Source of the DNA: Acidaminococcaceae bacterium
GTDB taxonomy: Bacteria > Bacillota > Negativicutes > Acidaminococcales > Acidaminococcaceae
DNA length: 11,864 bases
Assembly: GCA_024405585.1 (NCBI GenBank)
Contig: JAKSOM010000019.1
Location: forward strand, 1 to 11,864
Direction: 5' to 3'
Made by a program: the position numbers and the translations under genes. Below the pieces are notes generated by a model. That model saw nothing but the letters and a program-made list of their open reading frames with translations, was not told where the DNA came from and did no database searches. How positions within the stretch are numbered: the stretch's first letter is position 1; each line of letters opens with the position of its first letter. This document shows positions 450 through 11,640 of this stretch, one piece after another.

Positions 450-557
450 ATGGAGTTGAATGAGATTTTGCAAAGTGCTTCCAACTACGGCTTTCCCATG
501 CTTATCAGCTGTTATTTGCTGGTGAGGATGGAAAGCAGGATGAATTGGTTGACGTAA
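450..557 (+). CDS. YvrJ-family small protein (35 aa)
   Basis: The 35-residue product starts MELNEILQSASNYGFPMLIS, continues with a short hydrophobic stretch (residues 15-25, GFPMLISCYLL) and then VRMESRMNWLT. This matches the pattern of the YvrJ family, whose members are very small, have a conserved N(Y/V)GFP motif, one hydrophobic helix and then LLVRME. The function of the family is unknown; a membrane-associated peptide is the likely form. The start is fixed by an unusually complete ribosome binding site, AAAGGAGGTGA (433-443), seven bases before the ATG. A terminator follows 40 bases after the stop. In other Bacillota, YvrJ genes often sit beside other small genes of unknown function; here it stands alone. 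It is easily missed because of its length. Confidence 0.8.
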   Translation: MELNEILQSASNYGFPMLISCYLLVRMESRMNWLT

Positions 558-571
558 GCATTGAATCAGCT

Positions 572-630
572 TTGTGTGGCTTTAGAACACAAATAACAAA
601 AAGGCCCGTGCGGTTCGCACGGGCCTTTTT
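572..630. repeat. Terminator module, copy 1 of a 59-bp direct repeat
   Basis: These 59 bases recur at 1299-1357 with only two differences (A584/G1311 and C597/T1324). The module holds a small hairpin (TTGTGT 572-577 with ACACAA 586-591 around a 9-base loop) followed by the strong terminator hairpin. One of the two differences falls in the loop of the small hairpin, so both stems are intact in both copies. The two copies bracket the double-glycine peptide gene. Confidence 0.9.
598..630. terminator. Bidirectional intrinsic terminator
   Basis: A perfect 15-bp stem (598-612 with 616-630) with loop GTT is formed by A5-GGCCCGTGCG and its complement, ending in T5. Because the A-run and T-run are symmetrical it can stop transcription in both directions. 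It would end the YvrJ-family transcript (plus) and the peptide-gene transcript (minus). Confidence 0.92.
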
Positions 631-734
631 GTTATTCAGGGTTGGGCTAACAGTTAAAATAAGTTAGAAGTTAGAAATTATTTGAAAAAATATAGAGACA
701 GTATGTACCACCTTACATTAACTTATCCAAATAT

Positions 735-1007
735 TCACAGTACACTCCCCGACATAACAGCCGCCGGATTAACCTTCTGTCTCGAATATCCCTCAGAACT
801 CGCGTTCTGATTAATACTCTGAAGATTATCCACTATTTCAGATGGTATTGTTTCTGAACGATTTAGGAGTTCTTTAAGTGCAGCACCTGTCTGCCTCATC
901 CCTCCCACAACCTGTTCCAACTCCTCATCAGTGAGTTCAATTTTCTTGTCAGCATTCAGCGGCTGTGGAATCTTTTCCTCGCTTTTCTTAGAATCTTTTT
1001 CAAACAT
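735..1007 (-). CDS. Double-glycine leader peptide, bacteriocin- or RiPP-like precursor (90 aa)
   Basis: The product has a charged, hydrophilic N-terminal part and then IELTDEELEQVVGG at residues 23-36. This fits the classic leader of peptides cut after Gly-Gly by a C39-peptidase ABC exporter (pattern ELxxEELxxVxGG). Cleavage after Gly36 would release a 54-residue core with no cysteine, rich in Asn, Gln, Ser and Glu and ending NPAAVMSGSVL. The lack of Cys argues against a lanthipeptide or disulfide-bridged product. The start is supported by AGGAGG nine bases before the ATG and by a well-placed promoter (1044-1072). The gene stands alone: no exporter, immunity gene or modifying enzyme is within the window, so it would need a transporter encoded elsewhere. 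The leader assignment is strong. The role (bacteriocin, signal peptide or other secreted peptide) is open. Confidence 0.8.
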   Translation of the reverse strand: MFEKDSKKSEEKIPQPLNADKKIELTDEELEQVVGGMRQTGAALKELLNRSETIPSEIVDNLQSINQNASSEGYSRQKVNPAAVMSGSVL

Positions 1008-1043
1008 AAATTTCTCCTCCTATAAAAAACATTCATTTTTTTT

Positions 1044-1072
1044 ATTGTACCATAATCCATTGTCTGTTACAA
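1044..1072 (-). promoter_or_regulatory. Promoter of the double-glycine peptide gene
   Basis: Read on the minus strand, a -35 box TTGTAA (1072-1067) and a -10 box TACAAT (1049-1044) are separated by exactly 17 bases. The -10 lies about 37 bases before the start codon, leaving room for the AGGAGG site. The surrounding DNA is very AT-rich. Confidence 0.65.
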
Positions 1073-1298
1073 TAAAAATCCAAATTATGTTATGTTTTCA
1101 TTTTTCGATAATATTTGCATAATGATATAAAATCTGCGGAGGAGAGCGACCATGCGAATTTTCTTGCCCCTCACGTAAGGAGGGGATGGGCCACGAAGTG
1201 GCGGGGTGGGTTCTAATTATAGGAATATACTTCCACAACTGTCCACTGTTCTCTGTCCAGTGTTCACTTTACTCAATCCTGTTGGCTGATGGCTGATA
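1073..1298. other. Intergenic region without a recognisable gene
   Basis: AT-rich DNA up to about 1130 lies upstream of the peptide promoter. After it comes repeat-like DNA: GAGAGCGACC (1142-1151) is shared with about 316-326, and there is a hairpin CCCCTC/GAGGGG (within 1169-1187) followed by a GGCGGGGTGGGT tract. Bases 1230-1298 contain short imperfect repeats of the type TGTCCACTGTTC / TGTCCAGTGTTC. I see no promoter or gene that the second terminator copy at 1325-1358 would serve. Confidence 0.5.
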
Positions 1299-6021: not shown

Positions 6022-6100
6022 CGAAAAGTTAAAGTTCCGAAAAAATAAAGTGTCATTTTAGATTTTCGAAAATCGTATCTTGATTTTTCCGAAAAATCAA
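6022..6100. promoter_or_regulatory. Palindromic operator-like cluster before the second ATPase gene
   Basis: Four CGAAAA cores occur at 6022, 6038, 6067 and 6090. Two lie within palindromes: GATTTTCGAAAATC (6061-6074, perfect 14 bp) and a 21-bp palindrome with arms TTGATTTTTC (6080-6089) and GAAAAATCAA (6091-6100) around one central base. The latter covers the -35 box and the spacer of the proposed promoter. The sequence is unrelated to the 33-bp repeats of the first ATPase gene, but the position is equivalent. Confidence 0.7.
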
Positions 6101-6108
6101 TGTATTAT
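6080..6108 (+). promoter_or_regulatory. Promoter of the second DUF4143 ATPase gene
   Basis: A -35 box TTGATT (6080-6085) and a -10 box TATTAT (6103-6108) are 17 bases apart. Transcription would begin near 6115, just ahead of the GGAGG site at 6121. The left arm of the 21-bp palindrome contains the -35 box. Confidence 0.6.
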
Positions 6109-6129
6109 AGGCAAAAAAGCGGAGGAAAG

Positions 6130-7329
6130 ATGTACTACAGGCGAACTTTGGAAAAAATGGTGCGGCAAGCAAGCGGTTACTTCAAAGTAGTTATTATTAC
6201 GGGACCAAGGCAGGTTGGCAAGACAACCCTTTTTCGGCATATTATGGAACCCGGGAGGAAATACGTTTCCCTGGATGATGCGGCGGCTTTGATTTTGGCC
6301 CGGGAGGATCCGGAAGGATTTTTCCTAAAATTTCCGCCGCCAGTACTTATTGATGAGGTGCAGAAGGCCCCCAATCTTTTTGGTTATATCAAACACATAG
6401 TGGATGAATCCAAAGACCGGGGGCAAATATGGCTTACGGGATCCCAGATTTTTACATTGATGGAGAACCTTGCGGATTCATTGGCAGGCAGGGTGGCTGT
6501 CTTGAATTTGCAGGGATTTAGTATGGCAGAACAGGATGGCGATTATGAAAGACCGCTTTTTTCTCCGGAAATTTCCTTGGACAGAAAAGGTAAAAAACTA
6601 TCAAAAAATGAGGTGTTTGCAAGGATTTTGAGAGGCGGTTATCCCCAACTTTTGGATGGAACGCCGCGGGACTTGTATTTTTCATCATATTTGAACACAT
6701 ATATACAACGGGATGTTAAGAATGTTGTAAATGTGACTAAGGAGCTGAGTTTTATTAAATTTATAAAAGTTCTGGCCGCAAGGACGGGCCAAGTCCTTAA
6801 CTATAATGATATCAGCAGAGATATTGAAGTTAGCGCTCCCACGGTTAAGAGTTGGGTGTCTGTGCTGGCAACCTCAGGGCTTATTTATCTTCTTCCCCCG
6901 TTCGGCGGGAATCTTTCCCAGCGTTCCATTAAGTCACCGAAATGCTATTTTTTGGATACAGGGCTTTGTTGTTACTTGTGCGGGCTGGAGGATGAAAATC
7001 AGGTATTGAATAGTTCTATGTCCGGAGCATTGTTCGAAACGTTTGTTGTGAGTGAATTGTTAAAATCTTTTTGGCATCACGGCAAAACACCGTTCTTTTA
7101 CTTTTATAGGAACTCGGATAATAATCAGGAAGTGGATTTGATTATTGAACAAATGGGGAAAGTTTGGCCGGTGGAAATAAAGCTGAGTTCTACGCCGGAC
7201 TTGAAAATGGCAAGACATTTTAAGGTTTTGGATAAGGTTGAGCGGGGACAAGGTTTGATTATTTGTACAGCGGGGGAATTAATGCCCTTGAGTAAGGATG
7301 TGTGGGTAGTACCGGTCGGAATGATATAG
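6130..7329 (+). CDS. AAA ATPase with DUF4143 C-terminal domain, second copy (399 aa)
   Basis: It has the same architecture as the ATPase at 1502-2842 but is clearly diverged and shorter. Walker A is GPRQVGKTT (25-33), Walker B is VLIDEVQ (72-78) and sensor TGS is at 103-105. A predicted winged-helix region lies at about 225-255 (YNDISRDIEVSAPTVKSWV). The DUF4143 end carries ETFVVSEL (303-310), EVDLII (334-339) and PVEIK (347-351), the PD-(D/E)xK-like set. The start is ATG 6130 with GGAGG at 6121-6125. The in-frame ATG at 6100 also reads MYYR, but it has no binding site and lies within the palindrome/-10 region. The gene is visibly more AT-rich than panF and trpB2. Flanking by a 43-bp direct repeat suggests later insertion. 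Its cellular role is unknown. Confidence 0.88.
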   Translation: MYYRRTLEKMVRQASGYFKVVIITGPRQVGKTTLFRHIMEPGRKYVSLDDAAALILAREDPEGFFLKFPPPVLIDEVQKAPNLFGYIKHIVDESKDRGQIWLTGSQIFTLMENLADSLAGRVAVLNLQGFSMAEQDGDYERPLFSPEISLDRKGKKLSKNEVFARILRGGYPQLLDGTPRDLYFSSYLNTYIQRDVKNVVNVTKELSFIKFIKVLAARTGQVLNYNDISRDIEVSAPTVKSWVSVLATSGLIYLLPPFGGNLSQRSIKSPKCYFLDTGLCCYLCGLEDENQVLNSSMSGALFETFVVSELLKSFWHHGKTPFFYFYRNSDNNQEVDLIIEQMGKVWPVEIKLSSTPDLKMARHFKVLDKVERGQGLIICTAGELMPLSKDVWVVPVGMI

Positions 7330-10273: not shown

Positions 10274-10292
10274 ACAAAACACTTGAATATTG

Positions 10293-10381
10293 CTCATCAA
10301 GAGCGACGGAGGGACTGGCCCTGTGAAGTCGCAGCAACCTGTTCGGTCAGGTGCTAATTCCAGCGTGTAGCGAGAGATGAG
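10293..10381 (+). ncRNA. SAM-I (S-box) riboswitch
   Basis: The aptamer starts with P1 strand CTCATC (10293-10298), closed by GATGAG (10376-10381). It contains the conserved cores AAGAGCGACGGAGGGACTGG, GCAGCAACC and GGTGCTAATTCC in order, with the usual spacing. It binds S-adenosylmethionine and turns off the gene downstream, here metK, which makes SAM: direct end-product control. Confidence 0.95.
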
Positions 10382-10400
10382 AATCCACTATGTTTGTTTT

Positions 10401-10426: not shown

Positions 10427-10467
10427 CGGTATAACGGGGTGGGTTTGTGCGGAAAGGAAGAAAAGTT

Positions 10468-11640
10468 ATGAAAAAGTTTTTTACCAGTGAAAGCGTAACT
10501 GAGGGACATCCCGACAAAATTGCGGACCAAATCAGTGATGCGGCGTTGGATGCTTTGTTGGCTGAAGACCCTCAAAGTCGTGTAGCGAGAGAGACTTTGG
10601 TCGCTACGGGGCAAATTCATGTGGCAGGTGAGATTACTACCAAAGCATACGTGGATATTGCCAAAATTGCCCGTCAGACCGTAGTGGAAATTGGTTATGA
10701 CCGGGCCAAATATGGTTTTGACGGCAACAGCTGCGGGGTCTTGATTTCTGTGGATGAGCAGAGCAGTGACATTGCCTTGGGTGTGGATAACTCTTTGGAA
10801 ACCAAGGGGGGTGCGGTACAGGAATTGGGTGCCGGCGACCAGGGTATGATGTTCGGCTATGCCACCAACGAGACGGACACCTATATGCCCATGCCCGTTT
10901 ATTTGGCGGACCAGCTGGCATTGCAACTAACCAAAGTGCGGAAAACCGGCGTATTGCCCTATTTGCGGCCTGACGGCAAGACCCAGGTTACAGTTGAATA
11001 CGAAAATGACAAACCGGTGCGGGTGGACACGGTGGTGGTTTCTTGCCAACATGCACCGGAAGTGGAACAAAAACAGATTCGTGAGGATATTATCCGTGAA
11101 GTTATCACGAAAATTATTCCCCGGGAAATGTTGGACGACAATACCAAGTATTACATCAATCCCACCGGCAGATTTGTTATCGGCGGGCCGGCGGGGGATT
11201 GCGGTCTGACCGGCAGAAAAATCATTGTAGACACCTATGGCGGCATGGCCCGGCATGGGGGCGGCGCCTTCAGCGGCAAGGACCCCAGCAAGGTTGACCG
11301 TTCAGCGGCTTATGCGGCAAGGTATGTGGCAAAGAATGTGGTGGCGGCTGGATTGGCGGATAAATGTGAAATTCAGCTGGCTTATGCCATCGGTGTGGCC
11401 CAACCCGTCAGCATTCTGGTGGACACCTTCGGCACAGGTAAGATTGGTGAAGACAAAATTGTGGAGTTGATAAAAAAGAATTTTCAATTAAGCCCCAGCG
11501 GCATTATTCGGGAATTGGATTTATTACGCCCGATATATAAGAAAACTGCCGCCTACGGACATTTCGGCAGAAAAGATGTGGAGTTCCCGTGGGAAAAATT
11601 GGACAAGGCGGAAGCATTAAAGAAGGCAGCCAACAGCTAA
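10468..11640 (+). CDS. metK: S-adenosylmethionine synthase (390 aa)
   Basis: Converts methionine and ATP to S-adenosylmethionine, phosphate and pyrophosphate in the cytosol. Full length. The N-terminal ATP and metal site is [10 protein letters not shown] (12-21). The family signature [12 protein letters not shown] is at 121-132 and the glycine-rich phosphate loop GGGAFSGKD at 264-272. The C-terminus ends normally. Start: ATG 10468 with AAAGGAAG upstream is preferred to the GTG at 10447, which would put the binding site inside the coding region. It is controlled by the SAM-I riboswitch immediately upstream and is probably monocistronic, since repeat DNA follows the stop. Confidence 0.97.

Follow-up and report, generated by a model that had tools for sequence, protein, structure and literature searches.

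Double-glycine peptide of an Acidaminococcaceae bacterium with a core resembling the FlgK N-terminus

The peptide gene at positions 735 to 1007 of the window (the whole 11,864-nucleotide stretch of DNA that was analyzed) encodes a double-glycine precursor whose core resembles the N-terminus of FlgK, the joiner of the flagellar hook and filament. This resemblance is new relative to the original prediction, which described a double-glycine precursor with its exporter elsewhere and a core of unknown type; the first part of that interpretation is supported and the second is not. The best explanation, held tentatively, is that the peptide is an exported FlgK mimic that possibly blocks the flagella of neighbors. 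The features of the gene and its flanks are as follows.

735..1007, minus strand: precursor gene, 90 amino acids, ATG start, with 15 relatives
900..1007, minus strand: leader, residues 1-36, ending ELTDEELEQVVGG; matches TIGR01847 and aligns with seven other leaders of its own genome
738..899, minus strand: core, residues 37-90, beginning MRQTG; delimited by alignments
756..806, minus strand: FlgK-like segment NASSEGYSRQKVNPAAV, residues 68-84; from identity to Selenomonas FlgK and profile tests
1014..1021, minus strand: ribosome-binding site AGGAGGAG, 6 nt 5' of the start codon; read from the sequence
1044..1072, minus strand: promoter-like TTGTAA-17-TACAAT, matching at 9 of 12 positions with TG ahead of the -10; not above chance
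1216..1245, minus strand: stronger promoter-like TGGACA-18-TATAAT farther upstream, matching at 11 of 12 positions
592..636, minus strand: terminator-like hairpin downstream of the precursor gene, also facing the convergent YvrJ gene
450-557, plus strand: YvrJ family peptide of 35 amino acids (PF12841, 43.2 bits), converging on the terminator of the double-glycine peptide

The 90-residue reading frame is intact and shares its core with 15 database proteins, which is more than chance would give. The leader end ELTDEELEQVVGG corresponds to residues 24-36. On the NCBIfam model TIGR01847 (bacteriocin_sig) the leader scored 16.4 bits, above the curated cut-off of 15.7, and TIGR03798 and TIGR03793 were absent from the NCBIfam matches of the peptide at E up to 10. 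The database searches returned 15 core relatives, 14 of which keep the Gly-Gly; the double-glycine assignment of the leader is confirmed. The core had been called Cys-free and rich in Asn, Gln, and Ser; it has 54 residues, no Cys, 5 Asn, 4 Gln, and 8 Ser. Of the two expression signals proposed for the gene, the ribosome-binding site (AGGAGGAG, 1014-1021) holds, and the promoter at 1044-1072 is unproven because the promoter-like matches in this stretch (four versus 2.5 ± 1.4 expected from shuffles) are not clearly above chance. A 59-nt repeat with a perfect hairpin flanks the peptide gene at 572-630 and 1299-1357. Its copy numbers (the two window copies only in the own genome, two places in genome G002, and one in genome G001) make it look like a terminator plus conserved flank and speak against a mobile cassette. 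AlphaFold gave no confident fold for the peptide (pLDDT 60.5, pTM 0.27; three short helices at low confidence), and neither a profile search nor a single-sequence search of the PDB found a convincing relative (best E 0.78 each).

The core is common to the 15 further proteins obtained by three protein searches (P0002-P0013 and P0034-P0036), and 20 others (P0014-P0033) share in essence the leader only. Mean pairwise identity in the leader-only set was 0.84 for the leader and 0.25 for the core (171 pairs among 19 of the 20 proteins, found through their leader; P0022, whose leader differs, was omitted), whereas in the core set (the window protein plus 14 relatives, without P0036, whose sequence stops at GYSR) it was 0.49 for the leader and 0.61 for the core; this contrast is partly built in because similarity retrieved both sets. 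The occurrence of similar cores behind differing leaders is not an artefact of retrieval: these leaders include SKKSEE and SKKQEKVQ types, a Nif11-like leader in P0008 (31.7 bits on TIGR03798 versus a cut-off of 32.3), EELKN..EEYE in P0013, P0034, and P0035, and, in P0011, a hydrophobic segment without Gly-Gly. P0011 is the exception among the 15 core relatives, with a hydrophobic segment and CG in place of GG, and a similar core in that setting suggests a second export or anchoring route. A GYSR motif is present in all 15 relatives except P0005 (GYPR), and in the alignments it persists across the peptides even as large parts of the core vary. Among P0014-P0033, cores with one leader type contain recurring pieces such as VQLMTG and TPGA, and four pairs have longest contigs of equal size, which hints at tandem clusters. 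A search of plasmids and phages with P0034 gave no match at E up to 0.001, and no relative was confirmed in viral contigs.

Residues 68-83 of the peptide are identical to Selenomonas FlgK (NASTEGYSRQKVNLAA) at 14 of 16 positions. Searching the species genome collection with the alignment of the relatives yielded seven loci, all from Selenomonas-titled records and all encoding FlgK (288-311 bits on TIGR02492, cut-off 170.75). Because this first search was very large and its patterns contained the shared motif GYSRQ, the choice of FlgK was subjected to further tests. On a profile of FlgK N-termini (40 of 44 sequences; L056, which lacks G[YS][ST]R, and three without a Met near the expected start were dropped), cores P0001-P0013 scored 13.0-21.6 bits, whereas the 18,927 shuffles reported out of 20,000 reached at most 10.8. 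The weakest was P0005 at 13.0 bits, and one shuffle equaled or beat its C-terminal half. Profile-profile comparison of core and FlgK scored 43.2, versus 21.1 for the best of 400 column shuffles. When a core profile built without FlgK (A3; 10 of 13 cores, omitting P0004, P0011, and P0012) was run against 100 genomes at E up to 0.1, 34 of the 38 non-own matches were FlgK N-termini, in 22 genomes, and four lay elsewhere.

The more divergent relatives extended the similarity. A core-only search from P0013 led to P0034, P0035, and P0036, whose cores read QNIIGQNITNATSEGYSRQQVN and alike. On the profile of FlgK N-termini these scored 37.3, 31.5, and 22.6 bits, respectively, whereas 8000 shuffles reached at most 14.2, and the alignment of P0034 and P0035 to FlgK spans 48 residues. 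In a scan of all 18,950 NCBIfam models, TIGR02492 (FlgK) was the first match for P0034 (E 4.5e-5) and P0035 (E 3.2e-5) and the fifth for P0036 (E 0.013), all far under the full-length cut-off. An alignment of 8 of 16 proteins (A6), searched against 380 genomes of the class, gave matches at E up to 1e-6 in 13 genomes other than the own one, each of them from family f15; the nine loci that were read look like FlgK N-termini, and the three that were scanned (L081-L083) exceed the FlgK cut-off. The best of these matches, FlgK of genome G242, reads EGYSRQSVNQAAVMP, where P0002 reads EGYSRQQVNQAAVMP, and the N-terminus of an f15 FlgK (L082) is the same as that of a FlgK from a Selenomonas-titled record (L030), so that the class searched is the one to which Selenomonas belongs. 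The choice of FlgK N-termini, A3 cores, and A6 proteins could favor FlgK in these tests. We consider the FlgK resemblance of the core well supported, and a real relationship between the two very likely.

In the window's own branch, the FlgK signal is confined to the last ~22 residues. The first ~30 residues of cores P0001-P0013 scored no better than shuffles on the FlgK profile, and the N-terminal core part of P0034 and P0036 reached 7.8 and 6.5 bits, below the best shuffle at 10.2. NCBIfam searches at E up to 0.5 gave no FlgK match for any of the 13 members of the A4 set, which includes the window peptide. The cores of the leader-only relatives scored at best 1.4 bits on the FlgK profile (16 of 20 reported) and by this measure are not FlgK mimics. 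Taken together, these results mean that the window peptide is tied to FlgK by its last third and via its relatives. The 90-residue product lacks the FlgK C-terminal domain and is not a full-length FlgK. Three genome matches that reach core residue 1 start 18 nt before the FlgK model start, and in the one that was read (genome G064) this start is FlgK Met1. We give little weight to an exact start of the core at FlgK Met1, although these three matches agree with it, because the N-terminal half has no profile signal and GGM is frequent among unrelated cores bearing one leader type.

None of the 59 genomes searched from the producer's family gave a FlgK match (E up to 0.001); among the other 41 genomes searched, 34 matched at that threshold and 31 exceeded the cut-off. 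The other 58 family genomes yielded no FlgK-like peptide, and neither did G001, which bears the exporter; the core profile matched one of those 58 genomes, not at FlgK. We infer a rumen or gut habitat solely from how the FlgK records are titled.

The original description of the surroundings, with no neighboring exporter, immunity, or maturation gene, agrees with our analysis, in which none was recognized (six open reading frames scanned with Pfam, the others by eye). The six scanned frames encode YvrJ, two AAA_14/DUF4143 ATPases, a sodium:solute symporter, AzlC, and a PLP-dependent enzyme, and no flagellar gene was seen in the window. The absence of a recognizable immunity gene beside the precursor in this six-frame scan is to be read with the knowledge that immunity genes often lack a family model. 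Further features of the window are listed here.

1448-2842 and 6100-7329: two AAA_14 + DUF4143 ATPases within 12 kb
10291-10383, plus strand: SAM riboswitch (RF00162, 79.1 bits), upstream of the open reading frame at 10447-11640

The frame at 10447-11640 looks like an S-adenosylmethionine synthetase by eye.

The window is contig C101 of an assembly of 1.19 Mb in 271 contigs that is 81% complete. This genome encodes eight leader-bearing peptides, located on C101, C212 (four), C213 (two), and C270; the window protein gave the matches on C213 and C212, the Nif11 model gave C270, and reading of the contigs gave the rest. Against the own genome, a profile of the eight leaders recovers those eight, which are all of its own rows, and one 14-position fragment only. 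The cores differ among these peptides, which form a set of precursors with conserved leaders and variable cores; L005 (C212), L003 (C213), and L079 (C270) are leader-sharing peptides of this kind. Further ELTDEE..GG peptides, of the kind that the original prediction proposed to look for, do occur in this assembly: seven were found with related leaders and different cores. C212 also carries two radical SAM proteins, which stayed below every curated cut-off in the 25 top-ranked NCBIfam models listed, and on C270 a SPASM-domain fragment lies near a Nif11-like peptide (17.5 bits on TIGR03798, below the cut-off of 32.3) that is divergent from an RND-type adaptor gene.

The RND-type adaptor of C270 (127.4 bits on TIGR01730, cut-off 94.9) is 27% identical to its counterpart in genome G018, and next to it, at C270:3172-4134, is an HlyD gene that qualifies as an NHLM adaptor (200.8 bits on TIGR03794, cut-off 156.2). 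The contig ends within 70 bases of the latter gene in a G+C-rich stretch. By eye, this stretch looks like a repeat common to contigs, seen at 227-421 of the window and at 1092-1349 of L003 as the identical start of a spurious open reading frame; such a repeat may have broken the assembly at this point. A C39 exporter had been expected in the same genome. Export adaptors are present on C270; the 81% complete assembly gave no PF03412 (C39 peptidase) match and nothing over the cut-off for TIGR03796 (NHLM ABC1). In G018, of the same family, three double-glycine peptides are followed by both adaptor types and then NHLM ABC1 (945 bits, cut-off 853.3), and in G001, of the same genus, a 5-kb contig carries NHLM ABC1 (922.8 bits) and an ABC2-like gene (701.2 bits, cut-off 709.4). 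G018 also has, at 11895-13728 of L067 (minus strand), proteins of 146-214 amino acids that carry, close to the C-terminus, ELTDDDLLAVAGG or a sequence like it (ELSDEDLLAVAGG, ELTDDDLLVVAGG) and then short variable tails. The missing C39 exporter does not refute the export reading, because the assembly is 81% complete, C270 stops after the HlyD gene, and the same-genus ABC1 is complete; we infer that the transporter sits in an assembly gap. The adaptor genes on C270 support the suggestion of an exporter elsewhere in the genome, and "orphan" probably means just that.

The gene makes a double-glycine precursor in which a bacteriocin-type leader is fused to a core like the FlgK N-terminus, and we propose that an NHLM-type C39 transporter, with adaptor genes on another contig, would cut after Gly36 and export the 54-residue core. 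Export by the NHLM system is likely. Outside the cell, the core would be a partial copy of FlgK. Hook-associated proteins can assemble from outside. In other flagellated bacteria the core might sit at the open hook end or pair with the end helices of FlgK, FlgL, or FlgE, and, because the rest of FlgK is absent, it would block filament assembly in these neighbors; such an action on flagella is possible, though more doubtful than the export. Since no FlgK was detected in the family of the producer, the peptide would do its maker no harm and no immunity gene would be needed, and none was recognized. Stated in full, a bacterium of a family without FlgK would use a bacteriocin system to export a copy of part of the FlgK N-terminus of flagellated relatives and thereby stop flagellar assembly in them, a non-lethal weapon that mimics a structural subunit, belongs to a pool of swappable leader and core modules, and comes without an immunity gene, as its maker lacks the target; this complete scenario is rather unlikely.

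Several other readings were weighed against an exported FlgK mimic acting on flagella. A FlgK-derived core could have another extracellular role, as a matrix or adhesion component, an antibody or phage decoy, or a signal, and the available text on excreted flagellin-homologous proteins of Vibrio, which act in the biofilm matrix rather than in flagella (PMC6692518), offers a precedent; retention of the motif while much of the core drifts is also consistent with such a role. We regard it as unlikely. No further sign of matrix or immune binding came to notice, and the best FlgK matches argue against such a role: at E up to 1e-6, all 13 non-own genomes belong to one family within the class, which fits a neighbor as target. 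A modified peptide (RiPP) is given the same low probability: a radical SAM/SPASM enzyme from elsewhere in the genome would modify the core before export, as suggested by the two radical SAM proteins sharing C212 with four leader-family peptides, the SPASM-domain fragment near the Nif11-like peptide of C270, and the alignment of the leaders. No maturase was recognized beside the window gene, however, the core lacks Cys, and the window leader shares just 44% identity with the reference leader from C212. Modification of the core can be compatible with FlgK mimicry.

Less probable still is that the peptide is an ordinary class II bacteriocin or pheromone that acts on membranes or binds a receptor, its FlgK resemblance being short and irrelevant. 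The TIGR01847-type leader, the ~22-residue extent of the resemblance in the window's branch, and the low-confidence model of three short helices would all suit such a peptide, but P0034 and P0035 align over 48 residues and match FlgK in an unguided library scan, the cores of leader-only relatives reach at best 1.4 bits on the FlgK profile (16 of 20 reported), and no immunity gene was recognized among the six frames scanned in the window. That the gene is a non-functional fragment of a captured flgK, or a spurious open reading frame, is very improbable. Although the core matches the 5' end of a gene and FlgK was not found in the family (0 of 59), the frame is intact with a leader and a ribosome-binding site, and each of the 15 relatives except P0005 (GYPR) has GYSR. 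A recent capture of DNA from Selenomonas flgK was rejected, as 28-33 of 48 nt are identical in the eight genes compared; with only 2-5 of 13-14 same-residue codons identical, none of these eight FlgK genes is a recent source.

Double-glycine peptides tend to be classified as bacteriocins or pheromones whose cores have no known source, and the core described here points to a definite molecule, at the flagellar hook-filament junction. If the proposal is true, a decoy that imitates a self-assembling machine would serve to disarm motile competitors, and it would be worth checking the remaining variable cores of such sets for mimicry. Among the titles listed from open-licence literature, none reported FlgK together with a bacteriocin or double-glycine peptide, no paper with GYSRQ came up, and the available portion of the main text of a rumen bacteriocin survey (PMC13289728) does not mention Nif11, NHLM, or Selenomonas.

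Compared with known systems, the peptide seems to use the export logic of the NHLP and Nif11 precursors, which the available text of Haft et al. 2010 (PMC2887384) describes with TIGR03794/03796/03797 transporters and with similarity that stops at Gly-Gly, the core being hypervariable thereafter. Shared with that system, as far as this text goes, are a leader ending in Gly-Gly, several precursors per genome, and an NHLM adaptor gene; in contrast, the window leader matches neither TIGR03798 nor TIGR03793, and the core is both conserved and similar to another protein. Class II double-glycine bacteriocins likewise have a short Cys-free core and a leader over the TIGR01847 cut-off, but here no adjacent exporter or immunity gene was recognized and the core is FlgK-like. 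The modifying enzyme of prochlorosins is LanM. Prochlorosins and like sets, in the portion of PMC10783134 available, also share a leader and differ in their cores, whereas the window core is a conserved member and some of its siblings adjoin radical SAM proteins, not LanM. The excreted flagellin-homologous proteins of Vibrio, again from the accessible part of PMC6692518, are flagellar-like proteins with an extracellular role; they exit via the flagellar channel of a flagellated cell, unlike the window peptide with its double-glycine leader. With FlgK itself (hook-associated protein 1, TIGR02492) the peptide has N-A-x-x-E-G-Y-S-R-Q-x-V-N in common, and its divergent relatives align over 48 residues, but it offers a 54-residue core in place of several hundred residues, has no C-terminal part, and carries a double-glycine leader ahead of the FlgK-like region.
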